Notes under the pieces: model-generated
Databases searched by the model: none
What the model was told of the DNA's origin: nothing
Seen by the model: the letters and a program-made list of their open reading frames with translations, nothing else
Program-made: the position numbers and the translations under genes
Shown here: positions 4,127 to 28,791 of the stretch, in pieces
How positions within the stretch are numbered: the stretch's first letter is position 1
Layout: every line of letters starts with the position of its first letter
IMG/VR virus record: IMGVR_UViG_3300037231_000119
Coordinates: 62,001 to 126,000 of that record
From: a virus
Reading direction: 5' to 3' (one strand)
Length of the DNA stretch: 64,000 nucleotides

Positions 4127-6877
4127 TTAGCTTGCTGACTGTTGAACCGCACTGAGAGCCAAATTAATTGCTACAAAGTATATGCTCGTAGTCAATTTTG
4201 CTTCAACATTCACAGTCATAGTGGGTGCCGAAAGTGTAATGCTGGCATTTTTATATCCAAGAGGTGCATCATTCGACGTAGTCACCATCTTAAGCTTCTT
4301 GTAGAAGTCGAATCTCTGTTGCAAGAAGCTCAGAGCAGAAGCTGCAGTGACATCGGCCACAGATCTTCCAACAATTGCACTCTGAAAACTTTGCGCGAGG
4401 TCAAGAGCTAAAATGTCAGATAGATATACGGCCTGAATCGAATTATAAACGAAGCTCGAATTTAGGCCAAATGAGGTCTGATCGGATACCCACAGGATTC
4501 CACTTGTATTTTGAGTTAGAACCAAAAGGCCCGCAATGATCGCCTCACTCACATCCGCTGGATCACCAGAGTCATATCCAACTGGGTCCTGGAACGAAAC
4601 GATATTGGCCAAGTGGTTACAAATAGATTTGTAGAAACCGCCGCACTGTGTGCCAGCCGCTACTGCCGCCGCATACCAAGGCAAGAACAACTGATTCACA
4701 CCAGCCGAATTTACCTGAGTCACTTGCTGACACGTCAGAGAGCAACGATAGCTTGCCAAGCTCTGAGCTTGTGCCCTAGCATTAGCAAACGTGTCATTGA
4801 TGGACAGAATCGCCATACGATTATGTTTCAGGGTAGGGGTTGAGAACTGAATGCAATGTGACTTAAGAAGCTCATTGATGGCGTCGATCGTATAAGTCGA
4901 ACTTGGATCCGTATTACCGGCCGTAATATCTTTACTCGCATCCTGAGAGAACAAAGGAACAATGATATTGACCTGGATACCGCCCATTTGAGCGATCGCA
5001 TTTACAATGTCATTCGCAGACGTTCCACCCAAAGCGCCACCAGTCAAGAACACCATAGAGCCTGGTACTGGAAGACCGGAAGTAGCCGTAGGAGTAAAAC
5101 CAACCGCCGTAGAAGTATTCAATTGATTCTGGAATGTAAACAGGGAATTCTTCACACGTCCTGGTTGATCTCCGTCCGTAGAAGCAATCCCGATAGCCGT
5201 AACATGATCCAGAGAAGAGGTTGGATTCGAAGTAGCAGAGCTTCCAACCGTTGCCGTATACCCTGGCTGCGTGTTAATGAATGCCGCCAACTGGCCAACC
5301 GTAGTATACTGAGAAAGAACGATTGAGAGATTAGCGCCAGTTCCACCCGTGACGGTCGTTGTCAGCATGGTTGAGTTAATGGTCATCGTTCCGGTCGTTC
5401 CAGCGTACCCAACACTCAAGGCAATAGCTGGAGCAATATTGAACGTCTCATTAATCTGCGCAGTCGTATTGATAATCGAGACTTCAACCGCTGGCTCTTC
5501 GCTAGAAGTAATAAGTCCAGCCGTCATACCAAGAGCGGCCAAATCACCAGGAGTAGAATCGATCAACTCAAAGCTTTGTCCAAATCCACTCGCGTATGGT
5601 GTACCTTCAGCAGCCATCGTGAACACCAGAGTATTCATCGCAGACCCAGCAGATGCCGTAATACCAGCAGGGAGAAGAAGATTCAGCTCCGTAATCAACT
5701 CAGCAATATTGGAATGCGCAGCTCCGACGATAGTTCCAGGTGGAAAGCCAGTGACCGAATTGGTAGGGCTTGATCCCACGTTTCCAGTTACAACCGAAGA
5801 CCCAGTATTGGTAACCCCGGAAGAACCCAAAAGACCGAATGAACCAGCATAGTTAAGAAGAGGGGAATTCTGAGCATTGACAACCGTTGCGGCACTGAGA
5901 GTAACTGCGCCCGTAAGAGCAATCAGGGAACCGTTAACAGTTCCACCCAAAGTATCTGTAATGCTATCTTCCGCAATGACGTTACCAGCGAAGGTTCCGC
6001 TAAAGCCAGAATTGATCGTAGCCGAAGATCCAACTACCCAGTAGATGTTAGCAGCTGTCGCACCACCGGTCAGCGTCATGGTCGGGATACCACCAGAACC
6101 GGTAACCAGAGTGCTAGAGGTCTTGATAACATACACCCCAGCGCCATTGAAGGTTAGGGTTCCAGCTCCAGAAGCTGCCAAGCTAGCTGCGCCCGTGCTA
6201 TAAACACCGGGAGTCAACGTTTGGCCGTCGAGAGTCGCAGAGATCGGAGTAGCGGTCATACCGGTCAGGCTAGTATAGGCAGACATGGCGGCAGATTGAC
6301 CAGCGGCCGATTCAGTAGGAGTAACAGGGCTAGAAGATCCGGAACTGAGTGTAATTACGTGAGATGCTCCACCGTTCACACGAATAGAGAACGTATCGCC
6401 ATCCAGAGCGGTACCAAAAGCAGGGACCGTATTCCCAGTAACTTGTGGAGAAACTTCGTTACTGATGGAGGTAACCGTGTAGTTGAAGAGATTTCCAGCT
6501 ACACCGAAGTTAAGCGCCGTGAGAGTTCCATAACCAGGAACGGAAGCGGTCGCCTGTGTACCCTCGTTGGTTTTGAGGATATAGATGGAAGTAGCCGTTC
6601 CGGAAATGTCTGGATCGTTACTAGGAGCCGAAAGAGCAGCAAAGGCGTCAACGATTGGACCCGAGCCGTAAATAGCTCTTACTTGGTTGTAAGCGCTAGG
6701 CCCGAAGAAGTTGTTAGCCAACGTAACTTCAGAGTAGTTAGGGCCTTGAGCAGCTTCACCCATGATAAGAACAACCCCTGAACTCGCAAGTCCGGAAGCT
6801 GTTGAAATTACAGTGGTATTTACGTAGGCGCCAGGGATTGGGGTAGAAATCCAGGGAGTATTTAAAAATTGTGCCAT
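4127..6877 (-). CDS. Tail sheath protein with an inserted, circularly permuted DUF3494 (ice-binding-type) domain
   Basis: A 916-residue protein; the ATG follows AGGAG. N-terminal residues 1-110 (PGAYVNTTVIS, VLIMGEAAQGP, IYILKTNEG) and the C-terminal about 230 residues (NRMAILSIND, VSFQDPVGYDSGDP, a final AINLALSAVQQSAS) match phage tail sheath proteins, which contract to drive the tube through the envelope. Between residues about 184 and 390 a separate module is inserted. LDGQTLTPGVYSTGA, NIYWVVGSSATINSGF and GNVIAEDSITDTLGGTVNGS are hallmarks of the C-terminal half of DUF3494 beta-solenoids. AGSFGLLGSSGVTNTG and VTGFPPGTIVGAAH are hallmarks of its N-terminal half. The halves occur in reversed order, so the domain is circularly permuted. 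It is longer than classical sheaths (T4: about 660 residues) because of this and further beta-rich inserts. Confidence 0.9.
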   Translation of the reverse strand: MAQFLNTPWISTPIPGAYVNTTVISTASGLASSGVVLIMGEAAQGPNYSEVTLANNFFGPSAYNQVRAIYGSGPIVDAFAALSAPSNDPDISGTATSIYILKTNEGTQATASVPGYGTLTALNFGVAGNLFNYTVTSISNEVSPQVTGNTVPAFGTALDGDTFSIRVNGGASHVITLSSGSSSPVTPTESAAGQSAAMSAYTSLTGMTATPISATLDGQTLTPGVYSTGAASLAASGAGTLTFNGAGVYVIKTSSTLVTGSGGIPTMTLTGGATAANIYWVVGSSATINSGFSGTFAGNVIAEDSITDTLGGTVNGSLIALTGAVTLSAATVVNAQNSPLLNYAGSFGLLGSSGVTNTGSSVVTGNVGSSPTNSVTGFPPGTIVGAAHSNIAELITELNLLLPAGITASAGSAMNTLVFTMAAEGTPYASGFGQSFELIDSTPGDLAALGMTAGLITSSEEPAVEVSIINTTAQINETFNIAPAIALSVGYAGTTGTMTINSTMLTTTVTGGTGANLSIVLSQYTTVGQLAAFINTQPGYTATVGSSATSNPTSSLDHVTAIGIASTDGDQPGRVKNSLFTFQNQLNTSTAVGFTPTATSGLPVPGSMVFLTGGALGGTSANDIVNAIAQMGGIQVNIIVPLFSQDASKDITAGNTDPSSTYTIDAINELLKSHCIQFSTPTLKHNRMAILSINDTFANARAQAQSLASYRCSLTCQQVTQVNSAGVNQLFLPWYAAAVAAGTQCGGFYKSICNHLANIVSFQDPVGYDSGDPADVSEAIIAGLLVLTQNTSGILWVSDQTSFGLNSSFVYNSIQAVYLSDILALDLAQSFQSAIVGRSVADVTAASALSFLQQRFDFYKKLKMVTTSNDAPLGYKNASITLSAPTMTVNVEAKLTTSIYFVAINLALSAVQQSAS

Positions 6878-7809: not shown

Positions 7810-7816
7810 ATTAAAG

Positions 7817-8154: not shown

Positions 8155-9144
8155 CTAATCTTCGTCAGCGTAAGCCAGATCTTGAAGCGTGGACCAATTA
8201 ACGGTCGAGAGGTCTTCTTGGCTATCCGTGATATTGGACAGGATCTTTAGGCCGCCCGTAAACCCATCAGCATTGCCGAGAGATAAGTTCTCAATGTATC
8301 TATGTGGTTGTTCAATCCACCTTGATTCGGTTTGCAAGCTTAGATTTACGTCCCTGCTCCAGATCACTTGACCCGAATCACTATAATCTGGGTTCGGATA
8401 CATTCCTGTAGACTTAAGAACACTTTCAGTGCCTCCTCCCGCCTCCAAAAGTTTCTGTCTATATCTAAGTAGTACGTATACGGTTATGGTATGTAGCCAG
8501 AGTAGAGTCTGTTGGTCCATCGCATGGCAGGATATTTTATAATTCTCTTGCATGAAGGTATGGCCGACTCGAGCTTGATAGGTCTGGAAGTGGGGGATGA
8601 TTCCATAGAGTGCTGGAGTGAAAGTGAGGCCAGGAAGGAGATTAACTTGATTAGCAGTAGTAACTGACTGGATGACGAAACCTGTTCCAGTAGCCGGATC
8701 TACCAATACCATTTCGGGAGCAACAGCATTCAGGTTCACATCCGCATTGAACGAGAAGACACCAGTAACTGAATTATAGGTTCCTCCACTAATAGGTTTT
8801 AAAACAAAAGGGATCGGCTTATTGATGTCATTGGGGTAGAGTGTTACCTTTTCCGTACTTAGGTCGGCCATATGACGCATGTCCATTTTTTCGTCATTTG
8901 ATCCGAGTTCAACAACTATGGCGGGGAATTCAACCTTATCCTCCCTAAGAGACATAAGGATATTTATTCTGTTATTGGTAATCCATTGCTTACATGAGGA
9001 TATTTGACTCCCATAAAGCCTTCTCATGTACTCATTTGACACCGTATCGCCTAAAATATCGTCGATTAACCATAGATTTTTGGTTATATCCTCTAAACCC
9101 AATATTAATGCAGCTTTTACGCGAAGATCGCCAAGGTAGACCAT
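8155..9144 (-). CDS. Neck/tail structural protein, unknown family
   Basis: A 329-residue protein starting MVYLGDLRVKAALILGLED. The segments WITNNRINILMSLREDKVEFPAIVV and YKISCHAMDQQTLLWLHTI look like head-tail connector or tail-terminator folds of large myoviruses. The region FSFNADVNLNAVAPEMVLVDPATGTGFV looks like an inserted beta domain. It lies 4 bases after the gene at 9149 and upstream of the sheath operon, the usual place for neck and tail-terminator genes. No specific family can be assigned. Confidence 0.55.
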   Translation of the reverse strand: MVYLGDLRVKAALILGLEDITKNLWLIDDILGDTVSNEYMRRLYGSQISSCKQWITNNRINILMSLREDKVEFPAIVVELGSNDEKMDMRHMADLSTEKVTLYPNDINKPIPFVLKPISGGTYNSVTGVFSFNADVNLNAVAPEMVLVDPATGTGFVIQSVTTANQVNLLPGLTFTPALYGIIPHFQTYQARVGHTFMQENYKISCHAMDQQTLLWLHTITVYVLLRYRQKLLEAGGGTESVLKSTGMYPNPDYSDSGQVIWSRDVNLSLQTESRWIEQPHRYIENLSLGNADGFTGGLKILSNITDSQEDLSTVNWSTLQDLAYADED

Positions 9145-9148: not shown

Positions 9149-9964
9149 TTACCCCTTATATTTCTGCAAGATCGCTGGAAGGACACTATTATTCCATTCA
9201 TTTTGGGCCCACTCTGCGGCATCTGGGAAAAATCCCTTAGCGTTTTGAGCCGGATATTGCCACTTCCCATCATCGCCTTCTATGACAGTTCTGAAGGTAG
9301 TCATTACTTTCTTAGCGTTACCATTCTTATTCAAAACCTGATATATGTGGAGCCTTGCGAGTTGCTCGGTATTTCCACGCCCCGGTATCTTACTTGGAAT
9401 GTCAAAAACATGTAAGGGGAGAGGATGTCCATTAGGCCCCATTTTACTTATTCTCGGGCTCCCATTAGAATCCTTTTCAATTCCGCTCCACGAAAGCTTT
9501 TGACCTTTTAGAAAACCTTTGATACTTCCAATAAGCTCCTCATTCTTAGCAAGAGTCTTAATATTCAAACTGTCGGATTCTTTACCTTGTGGCATTGGAA
9601 TAATTTTGTAATGCTTGCCTTTATTAGGGCCATTCTTAACAGTCTCAGAATCTTTCAAGAGACCGTATTCTCCAGGCTTACCCTTCATATCCCACGGCTT
9701 ACCTTCTTCGATAGGAACTGCCGGTTCATTTAACGTGATCTCCCAAAGAAAGTCGCTGATTTGTACGGCTTGGCTTAGACTAGCTAGATATTTTTTTGCA
9801 ATCTGAGTATTTAGCTTTTGTCCCACCTCTTTTACCATGTTGGCGTGGGTAGCTTCCGCAAGCCCCTTAATACCTTTTTGAACATCCTTCGCGATTTCTT
9901 TTGCAAAGTTATTCAGGTATTGGGTTAAAGAGGAGATGTCTAGGTTGACTTTGATATCGCTCAT
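9149..9964 (-). CDS. Neck/tail-completion-like protein
   Basis: A 271-residue protein beginning MSDIKVNLDISSLTQYLNNF, with a helical N-terminus (IAKDVQKGIKGLAEATHANM) reminiscent of HK97 gp10-type tail-completion proteins that open with such helices. The C-terminal part is WQYPAQNAKGFFPDAAEW. Its ATG overlaps the stop codon of the homing endonuclease upstream (ATGA). The placement beside other neck candidates supports a head-tail joining role; the family assignment is tentative. Confidence 0.5.
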   Translation of the reverse strand: MSDIKVNLDISSLTQYLNNFAKEIAKDVQKGIKGLAEATHANMVKEVGQKLNTQIAKKYLASLSQAVQISDFLWEITLNEPAVPIEEGKPWDMKGKPGEYGLLKDSETVKNGPNKGKHYKIIPMPQGKESDSLNIKTLAKNEELIGSIKGFLKGQKLSWSGIEKDSNGSPRISKMGPNGHPLPLHVFDIPSKIPGRGNTEQLARLHIYQVLNKNGNAKKVMTTFRTVIEGDDGKWQYPAQNAKGFFPDAAEWAQNEWNNSVLPAILQKYKG

Positions 9965-11151
9965 AGAATACCCATCATCTTCAATTTAGGCTCATTCCAA
10001 AGCTCAGCATTAGGAAATTGTGTAAGAAACCAATCCCATTTAATTTGGGAATGAGGTCTCATATACCCCTTAATTTCGACCCAAGTATTAGGCTCTATAA
10101 GAAATAGATCTGGGCGATATGTCTTAGCTGTCCCAGATTTGGTAAAAAGGGGCGTCGTGAATGTTTGGGGTTGCCACAAAAAATCAATCTTTTTGGAATT
10201 AAGGTAATCCACTACTTTGGGTTCGTAACCGGCCTGACAAATAAGTTCCTCCCCAGTTTTCCAGTGTATTTTTAGGGTAGTATTTTGTAGTTTTTTAGCG
10301 TGCGTTAATGCATATGAGGGATCCTGAGATAGATGTTCTACCCCATACCTCTCCAGATTAGTTTTCCTTATCTTATCTAGTTTTCTTTTGGGATGACCTA
10401 TAAATTCCGCTCTAGGGAGTGACCAGAATTCACCGTGGTCCTTGTCAACGAAACGTGCCGTTTCATTCAGCCCCGTGTAGGTAGTTTCGTCTAAAATAAA
10501 TTCGTCCCCGAACTTCTTTAATTTTAATCTTACCTCCTCAATATTCAATTTCTTACCCTCATTTGCCCTATCGGGATGCCCATGGCCATCCATAACTCTA
10601 GCTGGGGTAGAAATCCATTCTCCGTAATCTACATCCATAAATGAACATTCGCTACGAACTTTCGTATGAGTAGAATCTATTATAGAGACAGTATTGCCAT
10701 GTTTCTCAAAAATGATTTTTTTGATATTTCTCAAGGGGGTTTTTGTTCTGTCATACCCTCTTTGAGGATGACCTCTCCCCCTCAAAACACCAATAACTGT
10801 CGCGGGCCATTCCCCATAGTCGCTATCCACAAAAATAGCCTTCTTGTTTACATTTACATAAGATGTTCGCACAATACGTACCGTATCACCATGTACGCCC
10901 TGAATGCGCTTCTCGATATCATCCACAGAAAGTCTTTTCCCGCTAAACGCATACCTTTTTCTCTTTGGATGGCCCTTGCCGTCCCTATAAAGCGCTGCCG
11001 GAATTGCAGTGAAATTACCAAAAGCCTCATCTATAAAGACAGCGGTAGTTTTTACGTCTACGTAGGAGGATTCTTCCATCCCAATAACGTATGGAAGTCT
11101 TCCCTGGACTCTTTCTAGAACTTCCTTACATGTAAGCTTTTTAATACCCAT
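9961..11151 (-). CDS. Homing endonuclease-like protein with DYGEW/GHP repeats and PD-(D/E)XK-like nuclease
   Basis: A 396-residue protein. Residues 1-255 contain four repeats of about 60 residues with the pattern F-x-D-x-x-Y/F-G-E/N-W/F followed by GHPKR or GHPDR, a known DNA-recognition repeat of phage nucleases. A helical motif follows (RKTNLERYGVEHLSQD). The C-terminal part has GYEPKVVDYL, then YRPDLFLI and WVEIKGYM, where D and E-x-K are the expected PD-(D/E)XK catalytic residues. Its stop overlaps the next ATG (ATGA), showing clean insertion between genes. A TTGACA-type promoter lies upstream. It is unrelated in its nuclease part to the 2392/18641/34772 group. Confidence 0.75.
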   Translation of the reverse strand: MGIKKLTCKEVLERVQGRLPYVIGMEESSYVDVKTTAVFIDEAFGNFTAIPAALYRDGKGHPKRKRYAFSGKRLSVDDIEKRIQGVHGDTVRIVRTSYVNVNKKAIFVDSDYGEWPATVIGVLRGRGHPQRGYDRTKTPLRNIKKIIFEKHGNTVSIIDSTHTKVRSECSFMDVDYGEWISTPARVMDGHGHPDRANEGKKLNIEEVRLKLKKFGDEFILDETTYTGLNETARFVDKDHGEFWSLPRAEFIGHPKRKLDKIRKTNLERYGVEHLSQDPSYALTHAKKLQNTTLKIHWKTGEELICQAGYEPKVVDYLNSKKIDFLWQPQTFTTPLFTKSGTAKTYRPDLFLIEPNTWVEIKGYMRPHSQIKWDWFLTQFPNAELWNEPKLKMMGIL

Positions 11152-11411: not shown

Positions 11412-13775
11412 TGGGTCACTCTGACCCTCCGCTTTCGGTCCATCTGGCGCACCGGATTGTGTAGCTTCCGCGACCGCACCCGGATCCTGAGGTGCATCTG
11501 AACTCATCTTAGGCTCGAGACCTAAGAGTTTGCACAGCTCGATCATGGCCTTAAGCATCTGGATCGTGCTTTGGTAAAGTCCGGGACTTTGATCTTTAGC
11601 CTCTTCTAGGAATGCCTTATTTGCCTTAAATCCCTGTAACGTTTGGGATACTTGATCTATAACCTGCGCCCTCTTTTGTTCCTGCGCGTGGTCATCTAAA
11701 CCACCCTGGAGAACTCCAGCCATATCTGGTTCATCCTGGCCATCTTCAGCCATCGGATCTTGTCCCGATTCTTGTCCCAATTCTCCATTTTGTCCCGATT
11801 CCTGAGCCATCTGATCCGCATCGCCCTGTGTACCTTGATAGTCTGGAGAGGCCATACGATCGATCGGACCTTCTTCTCCGCCTTGACTTCCAGGGCAATC
11901 TGGACAGTTACATTCATGGTCGCTATTCTGCATGTCCTTTTCAGCATCTGAAACGTTATTCTTTTGCTTATCGCCAAAGTTTTCGGGGACAGAGGCCCCC
12001 TCTTCCATCTCGTCGCCTTGAGGAAGTTCAGTATTGTCAATCTTTTTAGCTTCAGCCTCAGGAGTTTGGTCACCCTCTCCTGGCTTCTGATCCAATAGGT
12101 CTAAAACTTCTTCAGCCGTTTCATGTCCTTGTAGATTGGGATCTTCTTGGCCAGTTTGATCTGGCTGCTCTTCGATAGCGTCCCCATACATCTCTTGGCA
12201 CTGCGGACAGTTGTCTGGTTGCTCGGCAGACATATCTTGGACACCCAAAGCGGTCGCATCATGTTTTGGGCAATTCGGGCAGTTACAAATATGGTCTACG
12301 TCTTGTCCTTCGGGAGTCCCAGCTTGAGCTTCTCCAACGGTTTCGGATTCACAATAAGGGCAACCATCTACGCCGCCAGCCTCATCGGGAGTATCTTGGC
12401 AGTATGGGCAGTCATCCTCTTCCGAACTTTCCTGACAATATGGACAATCATCCGTATCTATCCCACCAGTATTTTGCTGGGAAGCATCGTATTCCTTACA
12501 AGCATCACAATCATGCATCCCAGCCGAACCATCCGCATTTTCTTGAGCATCCAAATCTTGGCAATAAGCACAGTCGTCCGTACGGTTATCTTCTTGATCA
12601 GGATTCTGAAAACCCTTGTCTTCTTTGTCGGCAGCTCCGTTATGGAAGCCCTCTTCATGCTTATGAAGATTATGGGTATGTTCAGACTTATACATCTCGG
12701 GCTTAGACATCCCCGCCTTGGAATCAGATCGTAGTTCTGATGCTGGATCGCTGTGTTGGTACGCAGCTCGACTATGTTGGTCAGCTATTTTAGAATGGAT
12801 ATCTCTATGTGCGGGATCCTTAGCTCTTTCTTTGCTACCGAACGCTCCTTGTTTTCCTTGATGAAAACGCCCCAGATCATTGTGAATTTTGGCCGCGTCG
12901 GCATGATCTTGCGGAGTGTATTTTAAAGTATTGGCAAACGCTTCAGATCGAAAATGAACCGGTTTCTTAGATTGGGTATGCCCCACAATATCGGAATCCT
13001 TGGGATGAACTGGTGCCGCATCCGAATCTGATTTATGAAGACCGCATGTATGTTCATACTTTACCATAGGCGCTGTAGTAGGTGCTGGGACTACGGTTAC
13101 CACGTGCCTCATTATGGCGCCATGTTTCTGATCTCTTTTATCCGCAGCACTATGTAAGCCCTTTTTACTTCCCACCGTTCCTTTATAGTGAAGAGTGCCG
13201 GTAGTGGGGCTATGAGAAGCTAAATGATATTTTTCGCCAGGCTTTAGATCTGGGGCGCCATAGAGACCGTGTTCACCTTCAGCTTTATGTAAATCGCACT
13301 TCATATTTTCGCTCTTTTCCAGATAAGCATCCGCAAGCTTCATCTCTTCTTGATTGGCAGTTTTAGCCTTAACTTTTTCGCGCATTTTATCAATGCCCTT
13401 TTCTACTTTAGGTCCATACCAAACCGTCTTATTCTTACCTGTAGCTTTGGCGTAGAGGAGACTTCTACCCGCTTCAGACAAGTCCTTACCAATACCAACT
13501 GAAATATTTAAGTCGGTGGCCTCGTAGTACTTACTTCTTAGCTCTTCCACATCTTTAGCGGCTTCAAACGGGATGCGAAAACTCCCCTCATCTCCACCAC
13601 CAGAAATTCTTTTACCACCACGCTCTGATACCCACTGATTAACGATCTCGTGACCCAAATCGATCTTGGCCGAGATATTGTGGAGAGCCTTCTCATCATT
13701 TGCAATGATGGCCTTACCGCACTGGCGACCAGCACCGTCCGCATCATAAGTAAGTCTGAGCATGGGCTTACTCAT
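11397..13775 (-). CDS. Palm-domain (GGDEF/mCpol-like) protein with acidic CxxC array, virion-module location
   Basis: A 792-residue protein. Residues 5-120 have the layout of a GGDEF/Cas10-type palm cyclase: YDADGAGR (metal-binding D-x-D at 11/13), NDEKAL, the hairpin SGGGDEG (GGDE at 60-63), then NISVGIGKDLSEAG and LLYAKATGKNKTVWY, matching the SxGIG and AKxxGKN signatures. Residues 120-400 are basic, His/Lys-rich, with C-x-LHK motifs (MKCDLHKAE, HTCGLHKSD) and KSE motifs. Residues 400-640 are acidic with eight CxxC units (DDCPYCQ, DGCPYCE, CNCPNCP and similar). The C-terminus is acidic with a helix (QVSQTLQGFKANKAFLEEAK). The gene lies in the virion module, so it may be packaged or prohead-processed. 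No family with this whole architecture is known to me. Confidence 0.7.
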   Translation of the reverse strand: MSKPMLRLTYDADGAGRQCGKAIIANDEKALHNISAKIDLGHEIVNQWVSERGGKRISGGGDEGSFRIPFEAAKDVEELRSKYYEATDLNISVGIGKDLSEAGRSLLYAKATGKNKTVWYGPKVEKGIDKMREKVKAKTANQEEMKLADAYLEKSENMKCDLHKAEGEHGLYGAPDLKPGEKYHLASHSPTTGTLHYKGTVGSKKGLHSAADKRDQKHGAIMRHVVTVVPAPTTAPMVKYEHTCGLHKSDSDAAPVHPKDSDIVGHTQSKKPVHFRSEAFANTLKYTPQDHADAAKIHNDLGRFHQGKQGAFGSKERAKDPAHRDIHSKIADQHSRAAYQHSDPASELRSDSKAGMSKPEMYKSEHTHNLHKHEEGFHNGAADKEDKGFQNPDQEDNRTDDCAYCQDLDAQENADGSAGMHDCDACKEYDASQQNTGGIDTDDCPYCQESSEEDDCPYCQDTPDEAGGVDGCPYCESETVGEAQAGTPEGQDVDHICNCPNCPKHDATALGVQDMSAEQPDNCPQCQEMYGDAIEEQPDQTGQEDPNLQGHETAEEVLDLLDQKPGEGDQTPEAEAKKIDNTELPQGDEMEEGASVPENFGDKQKNNVSDAEKDMQNSDHECNCPDCPGSQGGEEGPIDRMASPDYQGTQGDADQMAQESGQNGELGQESGQDPMAEDGQDEPDMAGVLQGGLDDHAQEQKRAQVIDQVSQTLQGFKANKAFLEEAKDQSPGLYQSTIQMLKAMIELCKLLGLEPKMSSDAPQDPGAVAEATQSGAPDGPKAEGQSDPKAVG

Positions 13776-14689
13776 TTACGCCCTCTCAATACTTCTAGCA
13801 ACATTTCGATATTAGATTCATCCCAGCCACGACTAAAACGGAGCTGTACGCCATCCTGAGATTTTTTAAGCCAAATCTTTCTATGCTGATCCTGACCGAA
13901 ACATAGACAGCCGCTGTAGCCCGCAGTCTCACCGAATATGGTTTGTCCGCAGTCATTACAGGAAATCATTTCCGATTTGGCCATTTCAACTTTGAACTCT
14001 CTTGGTTTCTTCTTCCGTTCCAAGAACCCTTTGAGGGGAGATCCCTTTTTAGGGGACTCTTCTTTTTTGGTAATGTCGGAAGGCTTAACTTCGAGTGGCT
14101 TCGTCGTAATAGGGGGAATTGCGACGGAAGGTGTCGCAATACTAGGAGCTTTCATAGCCTCATTCAACTTAGCCATCATTAACTTATGAATAGCTTCTCT
14201 CTGCGCCATCTTATCTTCAACCACCCTGTTAACCAAAGAGTGAAGTTCCATACGTTCATCGATCAGCTTCTGAACCTTACGATCAATATCCTCTTCAACC
14301 TTCTTAGGCTTCGAGAGATCTTCCATGTCATAAAGCTCAAATGTTGAGAGTAGGATTAACCCCAATCCAGGGATAGAACGATTTTTAAAATCATATACCA
14401 ACTTATTATTATCGTAAACAGAGCCAGTGAAGTTGTCTGCGGAGTTTTTGTTAGCACTAACGTAAGCATTGGTACCAAATGGTAAGTGGATATCCTTATG
14501 AGAGTTTAGTTCCATTGGTTCCAGCTCAGAGATCAACATGGACATGACCGCTCTTGGTACGACCTTAAGACCAATCATGATCTCCATCGGATCCAAAACG
14601 GAATTGGACCCAATTTTATAGAGATCTGCCGACTTAGCGAGAGTCTCCAAAAACTGGTCATCTAAGATGTTAAGGAGATCGTTTTTCAT
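13772..14689 (-). CDS. Virion-module protein with zinc-binding C-terminus
   Basis: A 305-residue protein, overlapping the palm-domain gene's ATG by 4 bases (ATGA type). Residues 1-120 look globular (MIGLKVVPRAVMSMLISELEP; GLGLILLSTFELYDMEDL). Residues 120-180 are a coiled coil (DRKVQKLIDERMELHSLV), followed by a Pro/Thr linker and a basic patch. Near residue 245 is CNDCGQ and near 262 GCLCFGQ, a probable Zn site. MAKSEM is a KSE motif just before it. I see no named family. The strict coupling to the palm-domain gene suggests the two proteins act together. Confidence 0.6.
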   Translation of the reverse strand: MKNDLLNILDDQFLETLAKSADLYKIGSNSVLDPMEIMIGLKVVPRAVMSMLISELEPMELNSHKDIHLPFGTNAYVSANKNSADNFTGSVYDNNKLVYDFKNRSIPGLGLILLSTFELYDMEDLSKPKKVEEDIDRKVQKLIDERMELHSLVNRVVEDKMAQREAIHKLMMAKLNEAMKAPSIATPSVAIPPITTKPLEVKPSDITKKEESPKKGSPLKGFLERKKKPREFKVEMAKSEMISCNDCGQTIFGETAGYSGCLCFGQDQHRKIWLKKSQDGVQLRFSRGWDESNIEMLLEVLRGRK

Positions 14690-15215: not shown

Positions 15216-16172
15216 TTAATCGCCTGGTAGGCCATCCTCAGCGAATGAGGTCATATCGACTGAGATGGCACCTGGGCCCGGTTTGATGTTATCTAAGGGG
15301 GTTTGGACGGCCCTATTGGGAGTTGTGGACTGAGAGGTATTCTTAGGATCCCCTCTGTTTTGGCTATGCCACACGTACTCACGCTGAATAACGGCATAGT
15401 AGGCCAGTCTCTCTGGAACTCTAGCGCCACCTTCCGTAACATTCGTCATTCTGACCTCCTTCGGCAAAGAGACAACATAGTGAAACGCTTTATATAGGTA
15501 ACGTATTGAATATACTCGACCTTTTCCCGTCTGTGGGTTTATGCCAGGATTTGATCCACCTGGGAGCCAATTGATATTACCAAGCGCGTCAATGCAAAAA
15601 TCTAATCCCTGTACATACGAAATGTTTCGACTATCGATAATCGGCAATTCTAGTTCAACTACCGGAAACATGGTTACATTTGGACCCACTTCGTAGGTCA
15701 TTTTTTGACTCCAGGAGACCTTGACGTTTGCATTTGGATCCGACACGTAGAAACGATCGCCTACATCCAAATAGATACGCTTCCCGTCATTTACTGAATT
15801 GGTATTCAAAGATCCTGCCACCGATTTTGTCGTATTGTAAAAACGAGGCAAAATAAGCCTACTTACAGAGGGGTCTACTTGGCCGCCCTCACTTCTATGC
15901 CTATCCGTAGTATTGTCGGTCTCACAACCAGTAAAAACACCAGCACAAATGTAGAGCATTCCGTTAGCAGTAAGAACGTCCAATCCGTCTCTCCTATAAT
16001 CGCCACGATCGTTTAGGCCAATAGGAGAGGGGATGGACTTCCAATGAGTATAGTCTATACCGGAACTAGTTACAAAGAAGTCATCTTTATTAATGTCAAA
16101 AGAGTGCTGCCCTACTGGGCAATAGGAGGAGATGTCTTGAATTTGTTCCCCGACAGGAGTTCTATTACTCAT
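15216..16172 (-). CDS. Virion structural protein, unknown family
   Basis: A 318-residue protein starting MSNRTPVGEQIQDISSYCPV. It has no transmembrane segment and no obvious enzyme motif; the middle (DGKRIYLDVGDRFYVSDPN; VTMFPVVELELPIIDSRNI) is beta-rich and the C-terminal third contains LAYYAVIQREYVWHSQNRG. Its first residues resemble those of the protein at 19668 (both begin MSNR and are Pro/Asp-rich). It starts 8 bases inside the end of the preceding gene. Probably a neck or tail component by position. Confidence 0.55.
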   Translation of the reverse strand: MSNRTPVGEQIQDISSYCPVGQHSFDINKDDFFVTSSGIDYTHWKSIPSPIGLNDRGDYRRDGLDVLTANGMLYICAGVFTGCETDNTTDRHRSEGGQVDPSVSRLILPRFYNTTKSVAGSLNTNSVNDGKRIYLDVGDRFYVSDPNANVKVSWSQKMTYEVGPNVTMFPVVELELPIIDSRNISYVQGLDFCIDALGNINWLPGGSNPGINPQTGKGRVYSIRYLYKAFHYVVSLPKEVRMTNVTEGGARVPERLAYYAVIQREYVWHSQNRGDPKNTSQSTTPNRAVQTPLDNIKPGPGAISVDMTSFAEDGLPGD

Positions 16173-16521
16173 TTGACCGTCCTAAACATAGTTCGGATAG
16201 CTCCGATAGCCTATTATCAGTGTTGGAATGGAGTCTAGCCAAACCCTTAATCACCTCATTGATATTGAGCGCCTTCTTTATCTTTTCGACTCGTCTTTCG
16301 AATTTGAGACCATCGAGTCTATTATTTGGATTGACGTGAATATCACCACTAAAGCCCTGACCCATTACAGCCATGATCTCTATCTGTTTCAAAAACGAAG
16401 CGATCTTTGGATCAAGAGGGTCATAGTTAACTTGAATCTTAGTAGCCCCCTCGATCTGCCTTACTAATGGCTTATCGATATTAAACTCAATCTCTTCGTT
16501 TCCAATGATCTTAATGCACAT
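16165..16521 (-). CDS. Conserved phage protein, unknown function
   Basis: A 118-residue soluble protein beginning MCIKIIGNEEIEFNIDKPLV. Residues 60-100 are a helical, charged segment (LDGLKFERRVEKIKKAL). Its ATG overlaps the stop of the gene at 16521, and its own end overlaps the start of the gene at 15216 by 8 bases, so the three are translationally linked. No family recognised; small assembly factor is one possibility. Confidence 0.5.
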   Translation of the reverse strand: MCIKIIGNEEIEFNIDKPLVRQIEGATKIQVNYDPLDPKIASFLKQIEIMAVMGQGFSGDIHVNPNNRLDGLKFERRVEKIKKALNINEVIKGLARLHSNTDNRLSELSELCLGRSNE

Positions 16522-17015
16522 TACGAGATCCTAGCTTTCTTGAGACCTGAAGAGAGGGCTTTCTCGGAAACCGCACCACTCATAGCATGGACGAACTCTT
16601 TAGGGACTTCCAAAGACTGAAGGCAGAGAGAATTACCATGGATAGCGCCATTAGCAGATCCAACTTTGATATTCTGCTTGGTGATATAGAAATCGACATT
16701 TGCACCGTTTTGTACACTATATATGTCGTGACCAGACTTACGAAGATCATCTGAAAGAAAATGGGAATGACTCTCAGCTTGAAGCTTCAGACCTTCCGAT
16801 TTCATGATGGCTGGCTGGAAAGAATTATAGCGCTGTTCAATCGTATAGCATAGTATAGCCTGATGCGAAGCTGCTCCAAGAACCTCTTCCTCACCCTTAG
16901 CCCCAACTTTGGTTGCTAGGCAAAGCCCACCCTTCAATTTTATGAGGCTTACCTGCTTACCGTCCATAACTCCAAAAGGCTCTTTTGATGCAATCTGATC
17001 GTCTTCTATTTTCAT
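16521..17015 (-). CDS. Virion-module protein, unknown function
   Basis: A 164-residue protein taken from the ATG at 17015 (MKIEDDQIASKEPFGVMDGK), one base after the stop of the transglycosylase gene and preceded by AAAGAGAAA. A start 13 codons earlier inside the previous gene is possible and would add MQKSEKPTEKR. The central part (SLIKLKGGLCLATKVG, HQAILCYTIEQRYNS) looks globular. IMKSEG is another KSE motif. I recognise no family. It probably acts in the head-neck or internal-protein group. Confidence 0.5.
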   Translation of the reverse strand: MKIEDDQIASKEPFGVMDGKQVSLIKLKGGLCLATKVGAKGEEEVLGAASHQAILCYTIEQRYNSFQPAIMKSEGLKLQAESHSHFLSDDLRKSGHDIYSVQNGANVDFYITKQNIKVGSANGAIHGNSLCLQSLEVPKEFVHAMSGAVSEKALSSGLKKARIS

Positions 17016-17016
17016 A

Positions 17017-18660
17017 TTATTTCTCTTTTCCGTAGGCTTCTCTGACTTTTGCAACGTGCCAGTGATTTTTGATATCCTGTTTATTTTTTAAAGCGCCTTT
17101 TGTTCCCTGAATTCCATTCAGCCACCCATAGGCTAAATTGTCTGGATTGTTACCCAATACATGCTCCATATGGGATAGGTGCCTATCAGCGATGGTGTTT
17201 TCGAGACCCTTATGGTCGTTCATATAATTATGAAGCTGTTGACCCTTAAGCGCTAAAGCCTTGCCATGTTTTGAGGCCAAATCTTTATGGCCTTTGATAG
17301 TCTCTCTAATAGTTTCTGGCATCAATCCATAGGCGCCATACGCATGCTCAGCCCCATGAATTGGTCCACCACCTGCGGCATGATTCGTGTTTTTTCCACC
17401 ACTCGACTCAACAGAGGCGATAGCCCTAAGCATCTTAGCGTGGTCATAGTTTGATTTAGGTTGGGCGTGTTGAATGCTGGCAGGAGACCGATTTCCAGCA
17501 TCTGTTTGAGGAGCAGATCCAGCTAAGGCGCCAGCCATACCAAGTGCAATACCGGCATTTTTGAGTGCGCCTTTTTCCAAAGACTCGCTTTTATCAAAAT
17601 CTGGATTGTTAAGTCTAGCTCTAGCCTCTGAAAGATAGTTCGGACTTCCAGGCTTAGATTTCATTTTATTCTTTATTGGAGCCATTCTTTCAGCTTCGAG
17701 ATGCTCTAATTGCTGTCCCGACTCTCTCTTTATATCTTTAGCATGGCTGATATTTTTTGATCTGGATTGTTGAGAAGCCATCACGGAATTAAGCTCATCA
17801 CCTGCATTACCGGCCTTCGCTTTATTGGGACTAAGAGCGGCTATGCCCATAAGAGCGCCAGCGGTTTTTTCTTTCCAGCCCTTGTGGAGTTCACATTCTC
17901 CCTTACTCACTTTCTCAGGCAACTTCTTTCCCTTGGTCGCCTCATCCCATTCATGGACACCAGCTTCACCACCTAGAGCTTTTTCTCCATTAGGGGTGTG
18001 CGCCCATCTCTCTTGTGCTAGACTTTCGTAAGGCTTGGCCAATGGCTTCTTACCGAGAACATTTTCAGCTTTAGTAACCGGCACATTCACCTTAGCCGTA
18101 AAATCCGAATGATCCGGAAACTTGGGTTCGGCAGTATCGGCTTCGTGATGGTAAGTTTTGATAGTTTTGGGGCCCTTATTGAGAACTGCATTTCCAAAAG
18201 ACAATCCGGCTTCATGGGCCGTTTTTGCACCGGAAGATTTAATTTTATCCCAAGTACCTTTATCAACACTCACATGCGGAGACCATTCAAATTTTGAAGG
18301 GTGGCCCATATGAGCAAACTTTCCATTGTGCTCCTTCATCTTATCGGCCGAGTTCCCCTTTAATTTGACGACAAATACGTCGTTCCCATTACGATCTTTA
18401 AACTGGGCAGGCTCTATTTGCGTATTTTTAGCATCAGGGGGATTTAGTGGGAGATGTTGGGCCAAATCATGAATGGAGTGAAGATGGTCCTTTTCTTTAT
18501 TGAATTCTTTCAGACTAGCGTGATATCCAATGTTATTATCGGGCCTGTGAGTTTGGCCGTTGATCTTTACGGGATAGCCAAGAAGGATTCCCTCTGAGGC
18601 TAGTTTCGCATAACCGGCAGGATCTTCTTTTTTGTGGAGGTTAGGCGCATTTTTTGACAT
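17017..18660 (-). CDS. Lytic transglycosylase with 2H phosphoesterase-like N-terminal domain
   Basis: A 547-residue protein. Residues 25-145 look like a 2H phosphoesterase: two Hx(S/T) motifs, GYHASLKEF (His47) and SPHVSVDKG (His129), 82 residues apart, with beta strands between (DVFVVKLKG). Residues 145-400 are a low-complexity, Lys/Ala-rich linker with FDKSES, VTKAEN and CELHKG motifs and two hydrophobic helices (AGALMGIAAL, LGMAGALAGS). Residues 405-547 are a soluble lytic transglycosylase domain: LRAIASVESSGG (catalytic Glu418), AYGAYGLMPETI and a C-terminal NLAYGWLNG. Transglycosylases in virions open the cell wall during DNA entry. It shares the C-x-LHK motif with the palm-domain protein. 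Confidence 0.75.
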   Translation of the reverse strand: MSKNAPNLHKKEDPAGYAKLASEGILLGYPVKINGQTHRPDNNIGYHASLKEFNKEKDHLHSIHDLAQHLPLNPPDAKNTQIEPAQFKDRNGNDVFVVKLKGNSADKMKEHNGKFAHMGHPSKFEWSPHVSVDKGTWDKIKSSGAKTAHEAGLSFGNAVLNKGPKTIKTYHHEADTAEPKFPDHSDFTAKVNVPVTKAENVLGKKPLAKPYESLAQERWAHTPNGEKALGGEAGVHEWDEATKGKKLPEKVSKGECELHKGWKEKTAGALMGIAALSPNKAKAGNAGDELNSVMASQQSRSKNISHAKDIKRESGQQLEHLEAERMAPIKNKMKSKPGSPNYLSEARARLNNPDFDKSESLEKGALKNAGIALGMAGALAGSAPQTDAGNRSPASIQHAQPKSNYDHAKMLRAIASVESSGGKNTNHAAGGGPIHGAEHAYGAYGLMPETIRETIKGHKDLASKHGKALALKGQQLHNYMNDHKGLENTIADRHLSHMEHVLGNNPDNLAYGWLNGIQGTKGALKNKQDIKNHWHVAKVREAYGKEK

Positions 18661-23121: not shown

Positions 23122-24525
23122 TTAGGTAAACAATTGTCCTTGCAAATTCTCGACGATTGCATTTTTCCGTGGCGCCTCTACTGCGAGCGTAGTCCACCTG
23201 TAAAAAGCATTGTTAATGCTCAATTGAGAGATACCGAGCTGAAGCTTTTTAAAGCCACTCAGTTCGCCCATGTGTCCCGTATCCTTCTGAATCAGGAAAC
23301 CCGTGAGAGCGCCAGGAGCCATGTTGCCAAGGTCCGTGAACGTCGCACCACTTGGGGCCGCCGCGATATTCCCGATGAAGAGAACACCCGGAGAAACCGT
23401 AGCTGCCACACCGGCCGCCGTACGATACACACGGTAGTAGAGAGCGCCAGCAGCCGCACCGATCGTCAGAGTGACCTTGTTACCAGCGAGAGCAGGCGTA
23501 ACGGTCGAAACGGCCGAGAGAGGCCCTTCACCGTAGGCGTTAACCGCAGCAACAGCGTACGTATACGCAGCAGCCTGAAGGAGAGACCCAGCGGCCCCGC
23601 CGTCAGCAGAAGCCAACGTAGGCTGAGCAGGAGCGCCCTGAATCTGGACGTTGATCGGATTGATCTGTTTACGCAAATATTGCGACATTTCCATACTGAC
23701 GGCACCTGAGCTAGTCCACTGCGTGCGAAGATGCGCGCCAGTAGCTTCCTGAGGTGAACCAGCGAGAACGATACGTTCCTTAGCCTGGCTGATCTTGTTA
23801 TAAGCAGAGAGGCTGGAAGGATCCAACATCAGCTTGTCCGCGCGACCCATGTTAAGGGCAGAACGAACCGAGATATCTTCGATCAGGGACTGCGTAAGAG
23901 CAGCGCCACCAGCCGAGAACACAACCGTTGCGCTCGAACCGTACGAAGCGAACATCAGATCCTGTCCATTGCGCTCGAAATCCGAGGCGCGAACCTGGAG
24001 ATCCCAACCACGCATATTGGCGAGAGCAGGAACTAGGGCAGGATTGCCATCGAAGACTCCGTTGTTTGAGAAATCAGAGTTACCAGAGAACAGGTCGAAC
24101 TCGATGTCCTGAGCAAGGTTAAGGGCCGCATCCTGAGCTTGGCGCTCTTCAGCAGTCACCTTGTCAAACGTTTCAACAGCGTTCGCAACGAGCGAATGTT
24201 CGCGTGTATCGACGTAGTACGCCATTGGGACCACGAGACGAGCAGCTTGGCCAGTCTTTTTCGCGCCCAGCATACCTTCGTAAGCCGCTGATCCGCCGAA
24301 ACGGCCGACAGACAATTTACGATTGTACTGATAGAGATTCGACTTCGTATTACGAACATCGAGCATCTTCTGCAGTTTGATGGTCTCTTCGGCAGCCGTG
24401 ACATTGATCATCACTGGAGCCAGATCTTCGATTTGATAAGCAGCGCCCTGTACGAGGGTAGAAGGGGCGGCATTATATGAACCCGCTTCGAGTGCCTTCA
24501 TCAGAGTTTGGAGTTGGTCTAACAT
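23122..24525 (-). CDS. Major capsid protein with FN3-like insertion
   Basis: A 467-residue protein, the first gene after the scaffold gene, as is usual. HK97-fold character is suggested by the N-terminal arm (MKALEAGSYNAAPSTL), an E-loop-like region with YNRKLSVGRFGGSAAYEG, and the late segment GELSGFKKLQLGISQLSINN. Residues about 295-400 look like a fibronectin type III insert (YTYAVAAVNAYGEGPLSAV; YYRVYRTAAG), typical of surface decoration. The N-terminal peptide AGSYNAAPSTL is also present in the prohead protease at 26932. A strong terminator follows. High structural-gene codon regularity is seen, with frequent GCC/CGT codons compared with neighbours. Confidence 0.8.
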   Translation of the reverse strand: MLDQLQTLMKALEAGSYNAAPSTLVQGAAYQIEDLAPVMINVTAAEETIKLQKMLDVRNTKSNLYQYNRKLSVGRFGGSAAYEGMLGAKKTGQAARLVVPMAYYVDTREHSLVANAVETFDKVTAEERQAQDAALNLAQDIEFDLFSGNSDFSNNGVFDGNPALVPALANMRGWDLQVRASDFERNGQDLMFASYGSSATVVFSAGGAALTQSLIEDISVRSALNMGRADKLMLDPSSLSAYNKISQAKERIVLAGSPQEATGAHLRTQWTSSGAVSMEMSQYLRKQINPINVQIQGAPAQPTLASADGGAAGSLLQAAAYTYAVAAVNAYGEGPLSAVSTVTPALAGNKVTLTIGAAAGALYYRVYRTAAGVAATVSPGVLFIGNIAAAPSGATFTDLGNMAPGALTGFLIQKDTGHMGELSGFKKLQLGISQLSINNAFYRWTTLAVEAPRKNAIVENLQGQLFT

Positions 24526-24556: not shown

Positions 24557-25462
24557 CTACTTAAGTAGATGGCGGACAGATTCGACATTTTTACTAAAAT
24601 AGTAACTGTTAATGGCATCACGATCGGACTTAGTCAGAGAAACATCTTTTGCTTTAGCCAGAAGCTTCGCATCGATTTCACTCTTAGTAAGAGGTTTTTC
24701 GTTTTGGCCGCTTTCGGTCTTAGCGATGATATCCAGGGATGTAATCGCTTTACCGGCAGGAGCAGTTTTCTCAACGAATTTTTTCAGGAAGGCAGCAACA
24801 GCGGCAGTCTCAGCCTTAGCAGCTTCGAGTTCCGACTTAAGCATGCTAATTTCCATAGAAGGTTCTGATTTTTCGAGAGCTTGAGCACCGGTAGAAGCGG
24901 GACCTTTGCCTTCTTTTTCAGATTGACCGTCTTTAGGGCCACCGTTAGGACGGTAACCTTCAGCATCTTTAGCGCAATCTTCCATCTCAGCTTTAGCCAT
25001 GCCATCTTCGCATTTAGCCATGCCCATGCCTTCTAGGCACTTTCTCACAGCGTCATGATGAGCCTTCAGTTCAGGCTTAGACATCGAAGAGTACATCGAG
25101 TGCATGTGACCCATATCTTCGTCGTCGTAACCATGATCTTCATCGGCAGGCGCAGCACCATCTTTGGCCGCCATACCTGGCTGTTCTTGATCGTTTTCGC
25201 CTGGCTTATCTTCAGATTGCTGATCTTGATCCTTGACGCCCTTATCTTCGGGCTTTTCGGTTTCCATCGGCTTCTTTTCTTCGCCACTTGATTCGCTAGA
25301 AGCCTTCTTCTCGTCCTCTTTCTTAGATTCATCCTTTTTGGGAGGAAACTCGGATTTGGCGAGACCAAAACTTTTTTCAGCTTTGGCAAGATGCTTCGAA
25401 AATTCTTTTTCCACATCGGCCATCAGGCTTGAAAGTTGTTGTTCGTCGTACATGATTTTCAT
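24557..25462 (-). CDS. Prohead scaffold/core protein
   Basis: A 301-residue, highly charged protein directly upstream of the major capsid gene. The N-terminus is helical (LSSLMADVEKEFSKHLAKAE), the middle acidic and low-complexity (Asp/Glu/Gln/Pro), followed by a His/Met-rich patch. Residues 205-245 are a coiled coil (SMLKSELEAAKAETAAVAAF), and the C-terminus is basic (SYYFSKNVESVRHLLK). This order matches scaffolding proteins, which template capsid assembly and are removed by the prohead protease. Six or more KSE/KAE motifs (LAKSEF, LEKSEP, MLKSEL, LTKSEI) recur through it and are plausible cleavage sites. Confidence 0.7.
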   Translation of the reverse strand: MKIMYDEQQLSSLMADVEKEFSKHLAKAEKSFGLAKSEFPPKKDESKKEDEKKASSESSGEEKKPMETEKPEDKGVKDQDQQSEDKPGENDQEQPGMAAKDGAAPADEDHGYDDEDMGHMHSMYSSMSKPELKAHHDAVRKCLEGMGMAKCEDGMAKAEMEDCAKDAEGYRPNGGPKDGQSEKEGKGPASTGAQALEKSEPSMEISMLKSELEAAKAETAAVAAFLKKFVEKTAPAGKAITSLDIIAKTESGQNEKPLTKSEIDAKLLAKAKDVSLTKSDRDAINSYYFSKNVESVRHLLK

Positions 25463-26931: not shown

Positions 26932-28791
26932 ATGTCAACTTATATTTCGGGCGTAGCTAGTTGTTCCGCAATTGATACCGCTGGGGAAATTGTAGATATT
27001 AGCGGTCTCGACATAACCTCCTTAGCTCGTAGCGGTACTTGTAACTGGGAACACAAAGCCGACACCCCGGCACAAACAGTTGGCAAAATACTAAAGGCAA
27101 AAAAGATCTTTAGTGAAAAAGACTGTGAAGATTCCAATCAAAAACACTTTTGGGATAAAACCAAACTACCGTTCGTATATATAGTTGCGGAGCTTTTGGA
27201 TGATTATACGGCTAGTGCAAAAGAATGTGCTGGTCAGATGAGGTACAGTAAGGACCATCCCGAACTATCGGCAATTTTAGGATTTTCCGTTGAAGGAAGT
27301 GAAATACCCGGAACCAGGAAAAATTCCATGCTGATCACACGATCGATTGCAAGAAAGGTTACGCTTACCGTATCTCCAGCAAATAAGTTATGTATTGCTC
27401 AAATTTTCGAGAACCCAGAACAAAAATCCCAAGTCAAAGATGATTTTGAAGAATTGTTTCGTTCTGACCAAGAAGCTATCACTCTCTTCAAGTCAGGTGA
27501 AGGCGAAAAGATTTACGAATCCTATTTGGCCAAAAAAGAGCATGAGCCTAAGAAGCCGTGTAAACATAAGAAAATGAAAAAAGATGAATTTGGTTATCCA
27601 GATTCCCCTAAAACTTCAGCGCCCCCTCCAGAACCAAATAAAGCAAACGCCCAAGCTATGCAAAATGGCGCTGAATCAGGCGGTCCAAGTTTCTCTCAGG
27701 GCCTATCTAACCTGGCCAATGGCTTAATGGGTAAAAGTGAAAACTTCGGATGGTCTAAGGGTAAAGTGGATAAGGATAAAAAGGCAGTTCACTACGAACA
27801 CCCAACTCATGGCACGGTTTCCGTAATCAGACACGATAATGGCGATTTCCACGTAAAGCATCGTGGGGCTTTGGCTGGTGTTGGTGGAGTTAAGGGCTCT
27901 TTCCCTACTTCTGGAGAAGCCGGTACTCACGCTAAGAAATATATGTCTTCCTTAAGCCAGGGTAAAACTTTGGCACCACAAATGCATAATATTTCATCAA
28001 CGGACGTTGCGAGCAAAAAACATCTTAAAAAAGCCATCGATGCCGGTTCCTACAATGCCGCCCCCTCTACCCTAGCTTCCGGTGCCGCTTATCAACGCGA
28101 AAGTCTTGGTTCAAAGCCTGCAACTACTGGGGCTGAAGACCATAACTTTCAGGGGACTAAGAAGAAGGACTGGAATAAGAGATCGAAAGAAGATTACGAG
28201 AATTGGCCCCAAAAAGAGAAGTTTGAGAAGTTTATGTCTGCTAGAATGCCTCATTTGGCATTAGGCGAGATAAAAGCTCTGGGCCGGGCGATATGCTTGA
28301 AAAAGAACATCGAGGCGGAGAAAGCTCTTGGTAATTTGGTTTTGGGTAAGTCTGAAGAGGACCCCAAACTCGGCAATCATTTTCTTTTCAGTGCTGAAAA
28401 TCCAATGCATCCCCATAAAAATGAAAGCAGGATGGACCATAAACAGACCCTGGTACACTTAAAAAGTAAGGGTTTTGATGCCAATGAAGTTAAGGGGCAT
28501 TATGGCGCTCCGGAGACCTCGATCATGGTCCACAATGTTAATCCCAAACAGGCAGAGCATCTTCACGGAATAGCCTCCAAACTTGGTCAGGATAGTTCGA
28601 TCTATAGTAATAATGGCAAGCATGAGATGCGCTACCATCACGGTGAAAAGGCAGGAAAGTCCCATTTAGGTTCTGGTACCGAATTCCATAAAGAAAAGCC
28701 TAAGGATTTCTATACTACTCTACCTAATGGAAAACACTTCACTCACAATTTTGATTTTGATCAATTACATAATAGTAAAAAGAAAAAATAG
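26932..28791 (+). CDS. Prohead maturation protease with long C-terminal extension
   Basis: A 619-residue protein. Residues 1-165 match prohead serine proteases of the assemblin-like fold: ISGVASCSAIDTAGEIVD, then CNWEHK (candidate catalytic His41), ILGFSVEGS (candidate nucleophile Ser119) and ARKVTLTVSPANKLC. Such enzymes digest scaffold and trim capsid proteins inside the prohead. The remaining 450 residues are low-complexity and basic, with LMGKSENF and LGKSEED motifs. At residues 366-393 is a near copy of the major capsid N-terminus (KAIDAGSYNAAPSTL, GAAYQRESL). The extension may act as scaffold or be self-processed. It is much longer than typical proteases of this kind (about 200-250 residues). 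Confidence 0.75.
   Translation: MSTYISGVASCSAIDTAGEIVDISGLDITSLARSGTCNWEHKADTPAQTVGKILKAKKIFSEKDCEDSNQKHFWDKTKLPFVYIVAELLDDYTASAKECAGQMRYSKDHPELSAILGFSVEGSEIPGTRKNSMLITRSIARKVTLTVSPANKLCIAQIFENPEQKSQVKDDFEELFRSDQEAITLFKSGEGEKIYESYLAKKEHEPKKPCKHKKMKKDEFGYPDSPKTSAPPPEPNKANAQAMQNGAESGGPSFSQGLSNLANGLMGKSENFGWSKGKVDKDKKAVHYEHPTHGTVSVIRHDNGDFHVKHRGALAGVGGVKGSFPTSGEAGTHAKKYMSSLSQGKTLAPQMHNISSTDVASKKHLKKAIDAGSYNAAPSTLASGAAYQRESLGSKPATTGAEDHNFQGTKKKDWNKRSKEDYENWPQKEKFEKFMSARMPHLALGEIKALGRAICLKKNIEAEKALGNLVLGKSEEDPKLGNHFLFSAENPMHPHKNESRMDHKQTLVHLKSKGFDANEVKGHYGAPETSIMVHNVNPKQAEHLHGIASKLGQDSSIYSNNGKHEMRYHHGEKAGKSHLGSGTEFHKEKPKDFYTTLPNGKHFTHNFDFDQLHNSKKKK

Follow-up and report, generated by a model that had tools for sequence, protein, structure and literature searches.

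An mCpol-like palm domain in a core virion-module protein of a myophage clade

The N-terminal domain of PALM, a protein encoded among the structural genes of a large myophage, very likely has the fold and the kinship of the mCpol palm. With the palm domains of its phage relatives, it very likely belongs to a separate mCpol palm polymerase clade, whose sister group is the bacterial mCpol of Panoptes. From the tree and the pattern of conservation, we infer that the phage clade started out with the active site and has preserved it, yet the protein can outlive it.

It was not until 2025 that mCpol was recognised as a defence cyclase; its product keeps a cell-killing effector in check. Phages are not known to make such cyclic-nucleotide signals; what they are known to do so far is to remove them. 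To our knowledge, no mCpol-type enzyme had been found outside bacteria before this phage clade. Such a clade, fixed in the virion module of phages that are widespread and with a strongly selected active site, makes cyclic-nucleotide synthesis by a phage or its particle a testable question. Either answer would be informative, because the lineage of Myxococcus phage Mx1 lost the active site but kept the protein, which gives a natural comparison of active and dead forms.

Results

Source of the window and features of PALM

The window, meaning the whole stretch of 64,000 nucleotides analysed here, spans positions 62001-126000 in a viral record of 162,446 bases. It encodes a terminase, a portal, a major head protein, GroEL and a tail sheath, and the source is therefore a large myophage. 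The terminase large subunit ORF (1037 aa, 38441-41554, minus strand) is apparently split at the Walker-A site by an intein of ~415 residues, with putative junctions SCREGMK/CTKKS...SHN/TVSVS (slash, junction) and helicase/endonuclease PHROG matches inside. The GroEL-like chaperonin (42180-43958, minus strand) matches phrog_5725 at 4.8e-80, and SbcD- and SbcC-like nuclease genes lie at 51243-52217 and 54479-56836 on the plus strand. The features of PALM and its neighbours are listed in Table 1.

Table 1. Positions of PALM, its parts and neighbouring virion-module genes in the window
Feature	Position	Strand	Remarks
PALM, 792 aa	11397..13775	-	ATG start; mCpol palm N-terminal, acidic CxxC-bearing linker, helical domain C-terminal
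mCpol palm domain (very likely), residues 5-125	13401..13763	-	PF18182, AlphaFold, Foldseek, tree
D11-A-D13, end of beta-1, metal site	13737..13745	-	D11 = KpOptS D6; KpOptS alignment
S35, equivalent of KpOptS S30	13671..13673	-	S in 55/62 domains
G61-D62-E63, beta-hairpin turn	13587..13595	-	D62 = KpOptS D57
K110...K114 (A-K-x-x-G-K-N)	13434..13448	-	each lysine kept in 60/62 domains
LEKSE156, candidate head-protease site just behind palm	13308..13322	-	
LHKAE166, candidate head-protease site just behind palm	13278..13292	-	
MYKSE365, candidate head-protease site	12681..12695	-	
Eight CxxC knuckles, residues 402-627, inside acidic linker	11895..12572	-	CxxC in about half of family
C-terminal helical domain, residues 682-755	11511..11732	-	conserved in 55/55
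g305	13772..14689	-	adjoins PALM upstream in nearly all relatives; 4-bp overlap; C-terminal zinc-ribbon-like cysteines
g271	9149..9964	-	conserved downstream neighbour, phrog_16819-like
g329	8155..9144	-	conserved downstream virion-module gene, phrog_1000-like
Tail sheath	4127..6877	-	phrog_279 3.6e-22; 38% identical to annotated Mx1 sheath
Major head protein	23122..24525	-	phrog_752 1.9e-38
Scaffold-like acidic protein	24557..25462	-	upstream of major head; 7 PhiXK[SAT]E copies; scaffold role inferred
Head maturation protease-like ORF	26932..28791	+	phrog_1028 1.7e-6, residues 2-43 only

The N-terminal domain resembles Panoptes mCpol in profile and structure

An earlier note, made from the sequence alone, had quoted the motifs YDADGAGR, NDEKAL, SGGGDEG, NISVGIG and AKATGKN, and had read them as a palm-cyclase fold nearer mCpol than classical GGDEF. 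All five motifs are found in the 792-residue ORF. They contain D11 and D13 (YDADGAGR), G61, D62 and E63 (SGGGDEG), G94 and G96 (NISVGIG), and K110 and K114 (AKATGKN). Both parts of the reading held: the fold is supported by Pfam, profile comparison, an AlphaFold model, Foldseek and the tree, and the nearness to mCpol by the tree, the profile searches and Foldseek.

Against full-length PALM, the mCpol profile PF18182 scores 42.8 bits (E 7.7e-11; cut-off 26.4), aligning residues 9-119 with profile positions 3-113/114. The same profile matches all 56 phage relatives at E<1, and no PF00990 (GGDEF) match appears at E<1 for the window protein. With the NCBIfam mCpol model, the window protein stays narrowly below the cut-off (37.8 vs 40 bits); six relatives scanned pass it (47-68 bits). 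PALM matches the KpOptS chains 9nwn/9mnr at 4e-5 in phmmer, and these two Panoptes mCpol crystal sequences are its sole meaningful sequence matches in the PDB. A profile built from the 56 relatives reaches the same chains at 2e-21. These E-values place the likeness well outside chance.

The AlphaFold model of the palm domain has a pLDDT of 97.5. Its top Foldseek match is KpOptS of Panoptes (TM 0.78/0.86, 1.7 A, E 2e-8), and GGDEF and Cas10 rank after it. In a predicted viral structure database, the best match is an uncharacterised protein of an uncultured phage (TM 0.90). D11 and D13 locate at the end of beta-1, and D62 and E63 occupy the turn of the beta-2/beta-3 hairpin (E55-60/E63-69); KpOptS D6 and D57 align with D11 and D62. 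A fold in which D11, D13, D62 and E63 do not converge had been named beforehand as refuting; their convergence is supported by the topology of the model, not by atomic distances.

Phage palm domains form a sister clade of bacterial mCpol

The Pfam score alone is insufficient for mCpol identity, because bacterial Cas10 ORFs also pass the PF18182 cut-off (30-49 bits). We therefore rejected it as lone proof, and replaced it with a tree and profile comparison. The tree contains 56 phage, 14 mCpol, 25 Cas10 and 9 GGDEF domains. Phage and bacterial mCpol domains group together with support of 100/99, the phage domains alone with 98/97 and the mCpol domains alone with 99/85. All Cas10 and GGDEF domains fall outside this clade, the GGDEF domains on their own 100/100 branch. 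With only 128 columns the inner forks are weak, but the branches of the named clades are not.

The profile of the phage palms agrees with this placement. It aligns with most bacterial mCpols over the full length at 54-77 bits, whereas Cas10 reaches at most 30 bits and covers it only in part, and GGDEF loci give no match at E<1. The signature of the phage clade is a GGDE hairpin; the second acidic residue is mostly absent in bacterial mCpol, and Cas10 carries GGDD. PALM also fails to qualify as a member of Cas10 or type III CRISPR by clade, by the GGDD motif and by cas neighbours.

The active site is conserved and was lost as a whole once

Among the 62 unique palm domains, D13 is invariant (62/62), and D62, D11 and E63 are kept in 60, 54 and 53, respectively. 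The corresponding counts for the 56 non-redundant phage domains are 56 for D13, 54 each for D62, K110 and K114, 48 for D11 and 47 for E63. Many of these domains are only about 30% identical to that of the window. D13, G94, G96, K114, D62 and K110 all stand within the top eight of 128 columns by conservation. By analogy with the lysine or arginine of GGDEF domains, K110 and K114 would be phosphate-contact lysines.

Residue S30 of KpOptS is reported to determine ATP selectivity (PMC12657230). Its equivalent, position 35, is serine in 49/56 phage domains and 25/25 Cas10, compared with 2/9 GGDEF domains. The phage domains share SxGxG with G96 only with mCpol, and F occurs at position 64 in 7/56 of them.

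The tree shows two changes of D11: one to N, in a single subclade, and one in the Mx1/L015 pair, which is also the sole place where D62 is lost. The whole active site disappeared once, in this same lineage, whose branch is long and fast-evolving (1.64 changes per column). Mx1 and L015 nevertheless retain the gene and its architecture, with linker and C-terminal domain. At least one conserved function can therefore do without catalysis. Given the conservation of the active site, we infer that most members are likely to be catalytically active, although no enzyme assay supports this.

PALM is a core gene of the virion module

We scanned IMG/VR with neighbour genes and with the palm profile and obtained about 90 loci. 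Many of these overlap, and they yielded the 62 unique and 56 non-redundant palm domains. The gene order g318-g159-g305-PALM-g271-g329-c3-c3-g103-sheath-g171 is near-constant; the more diverged loci L091, L092, L097 and L106 retain it only in part. In most members the start of PALM overlaps the stop of g305 or sits a few bases from it. PALM is present in 10/10 loci that span the site and were retrieved by neighbour genes alone, and three truncated contigs from that search carry its C-terminal domain. Each of 14 genomes (114-177 kb) has one copy. The near-constant place, the single copy and the loci found through neighbours therefore make PALM a core virion-module gene, not cargo. The earlier claim that it is encoded among structural genes is thus upheld by synteny across relatives.

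Among 50,697 records searched with four different queries, Myxococcus phage Mx1 was the sole isolate to carry a homologue; there too the gene lies upstream of the sheath, at the corresponding position. A viral scan with a single protein as query gave no match. In Mx1 (L002), the gene before the sheath (15587-17266) has a weak S-adenosylmethionine-lyase match (7.6e-5, below cut-off).

We weighed g305 as a cyclic-nucleotide receptor, but its model reaches a pLDDT of only 69.5 and Foldseek returned no match; PDB profile searches with g329, g271 and g318 were also without a match. Free-standing homing/REase-like ORFs (DUF7487, MTES_1575, HNH) lie within the virion module at 9961-11151, 18641-19648 and 2392-3486 on the minus strand, and members of this cluster recur next to PALM in many relatives. 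On the head side, the N-terminus of the major head protein (23122-24525, minus strand; EAGSYNAAPSTLVQGAAYQ) and the protease-like ORF (26932-28791, plus strand; DAGSYNAAPSTLASGAAYQ) have a nearly identical stretch in common.

Linker, C-terminal domain and candidate head-protease sites

The palm, an acidic linker (median 233 aa) and the C-terminal helical domain occur together in 55/55 testable members. The region behind the palm has a median net charge of -58. The earlier note had described a zinc-rich tail, which held only in part: it is true of the window protein, but 28/55 relatives lack CxxC, and we rejected it as a defining feature. For the C-terminal helical domain, searches of PDB and PHROG gave no meaningful match.

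The motif PhiXK[SAT]E ends in Glu, the residue after which the head proteases of giant phages and T4 cut (PMC5694885). We counted 21 copies (1.4 expected) in a head-side set of eight proteins to which PALM and the scaffold belong; the tail/neck proteins have none (0.5 expected), and 13 copies (11.1 expected) fall elsewhere in the record. The head-side set was defined when sites in some of its proteins were already known, so that 21 vs 1.4 overstates the case; the family-wide counts agree. Throughout the clade the motif occurs in head-side proteins (for example 24557-25462, 26932-28791, 16521-17054 and 7208-8137) and is probably a head-protease cleavage site; in the relatives, g177 proteins carry about one copy each, and most g305 proteins have one or more.

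Three such sites are present in the window protein, which is enriched in the motif, but only 21/55 relatives have one behind the palm, and universal processing of PALM by the head protease is not supported. Processing and packaging of PALM remain plausible, inferred from the motif and synteny without proteomics. A role of PALM as the major-capsid scaffold is unlikely, as a separate acidic ORF (24557-25462) stands upstream of the major head protein.

The Panoptes effector is not found in the phage genomes

The antiphage role of known mCpols has been established in Panoptes, whose effector is held silent by 2',3'-c-di-AMP (PMC12657218, PMC12657230). We did not find this S-2TM-beta effector (OptE, PF18153) in 15 phage genomes, whereas the same search detected it beside mCpol in the bacterial genomes G017, G018 and G020. 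PALM is flanked by g305 and g271, and the two-gene operon of Panoptes (OptSE) is not formed. PADLOC gave only a marginal match to CARF_HEPN_mCpol (E 0.013).

In the open-access literature searched, which leaves out subscription papers, no viral mCpol is described; of the papers that mention mCpol, the two on Panoptes were the relevant ones. Nothing there contradicts the earlier claim of an undescribed arrangement. Within that scope, the mCpol domain family is known, and the phage clade, its place in the virion module, the GGDE site and the fusion architecture appear undescribed.

Discussion

Proposed role of PALM

The full active site (DxD, GGDE, two lysines and the ATP-selecting serine) is present in most members, and we therefore predict that the palm domains dimerise and synthesise a cyclic dinucleotide. 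Two ATP would be joined into a product of the c-di-AMP kind; both the catalysis and the product are inferred. PALM would be made late, together with head and tail proteins, and the acidic linker and C-terminal helices may anchor it to the particle or to a precursor of the particle. In the subclade of the window, PALM would probably enter the prohead, where the head protease may cut behind the palm, as in internal proteins of T4 and giant phages. It would then be delivered with the DNA, and the cyclic nucleotide would be present from the start of infection; late expression, packaging and injection are all inferred. Such a nucleotide might hold a Panoptes-like guard in its silent state or fill receptors of the CBASS type.

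We hold the steps of this model with unequal confidence. Most members are likely to be ATP-using cyclases in a protein with an additional non-catalytic role, where catalysis and product are inferences. That PALM is a component of the virion or prohead we consider more likely than not, on the indirect evidence of synteny and protease-like sites without proteomics. Whether it is an active cyclase and a particle component at once, both by inference, could go either way. An injected counter-defence factor is a reading that we consider less likely than not, with no counter-defence target or host identified. The cyclase activity and virion presence suggested in the earlier note thus remain inferences, without biochemistry or proteomics. 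A bolder reading, in which the whole tailed-phage clade delivers active virion mCpol with the genome and pre-empts Panoptes or CBASS hosts, is possible but rather unlikely. If it is true, a defence-type cyclic dinucleotide is made by a phage from the first moments of infection, and virion-delivered mCpol is a counter-defence by signal supply, the opposite of sponges and phosphodiesterases.

Alternative explanations

The strongest rival takes PALM for a head, neck or assembly factor, in which the palm is an inherited module for dimerisation or nucleotide binding and catalysis is incidental or absent. It is consistent with a core gene whose order relative to head-tail genes is near-constant, with an acidic disordered tail and helical C-terminus reminiscent of scaffolds, and with the survival of gene, linker and C-terminal domain after the active site was lost in Mx1 and L015. 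On the other hand, the catalytic residues rank among the most conserved columns although many of the domains have diverged widely, and their single loss lies on a long branch of fast change. A plain dimerisation module has no need of D11, D13, D62, E63, K110 and K114 together. We consider this explanation less likely than not.

Two further rivals are very unlikely. In one, mCpol shields the infected cell from competing phages in a Panoptes- or CBASS-like manner. The known mCpols do act in antiphage defence, but the phage genomes searched lack S-2TM-beta where the bacterial controls are positive, the PADLOC match is marginal, PALM is core and syntenic with virion genes rather than accessory, and its constant neighbours are the structural genes, with no effector-like gene among them. 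In the other, PALM is a GGDEF diguanylate cyclase that raises c-di-GMP of the host and alters motility, biofilm or receptor display. GGDE(F) is indeed better kept than in bacterial mCpol (E63 47/56; F64 7/56), GGDEF domains are also among the Foldseek matches, and GGDEF-like proteins exist in other large phages (Bacillus phages G and SP-15). However, the 9 GGDEF domains form a separate, fully supported branch; SxGxG with G96 is common to mCpol only, and S35 is common to mCpol and Cas10, not GGDEF.

Comparison with known systems

The closest known relative of PALM is mCpol/OptS of Panoptes (PF18182; PDB 9MNR, 9PD0, 9NWN), with which it shares the fold, an alignment over the full length and the equivalents of D6, D57 and S30. 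The hairpin of OptS is poor in acidic residues, whereas that of PALM reads GGDE. OptS is a stand-alone synthase of ~120 aa; the phage palm is fused to a linker and a helical C-terminal domain in 55/55 members, belongs to a core virion-module gene and has no S-2TM-beta partner. The Cas10 palm of type III CRISPR has the palm fold, DxD, GGD and the ATP-selecting serine in common with PALM, but Cas10 falls outside the phage/mCpol clade, and PALM differs in lacking HD, Cmr or crRNA-binding parts and in having GGDE instead of GGDD. GGDEF diguanylate cyclases, among them the Bacillus phage G and SP-15 proteins, share the palm cyclase fold and the GGDE(F) hairpin; they are distant in the tree and differ at positions 35 and 96.

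With T4 Alt and other internal head proteins, and with the ejection proteins of SPN3US and phiKZ, PALM shares candidate Glu-specific sites and the virion-module context, but we found no homology, packaging of PALM is an inference, and the sites occur in only 21/55 relatives. Iyer et al. (2017, PMC5512222) described virion-delivered polyvalent proteins with GGDEF domains and proposed a similar use for these domains. PALM has in common with them the proposed packaging of a cyclic-nucleotide enzyme into the virion. Their proteins are mosaic and multidomain, carry GGDEF proper and come from prophages and mobile elements, whereas PALM has a single mCpol palm and a fixed core position in one myophage clade.
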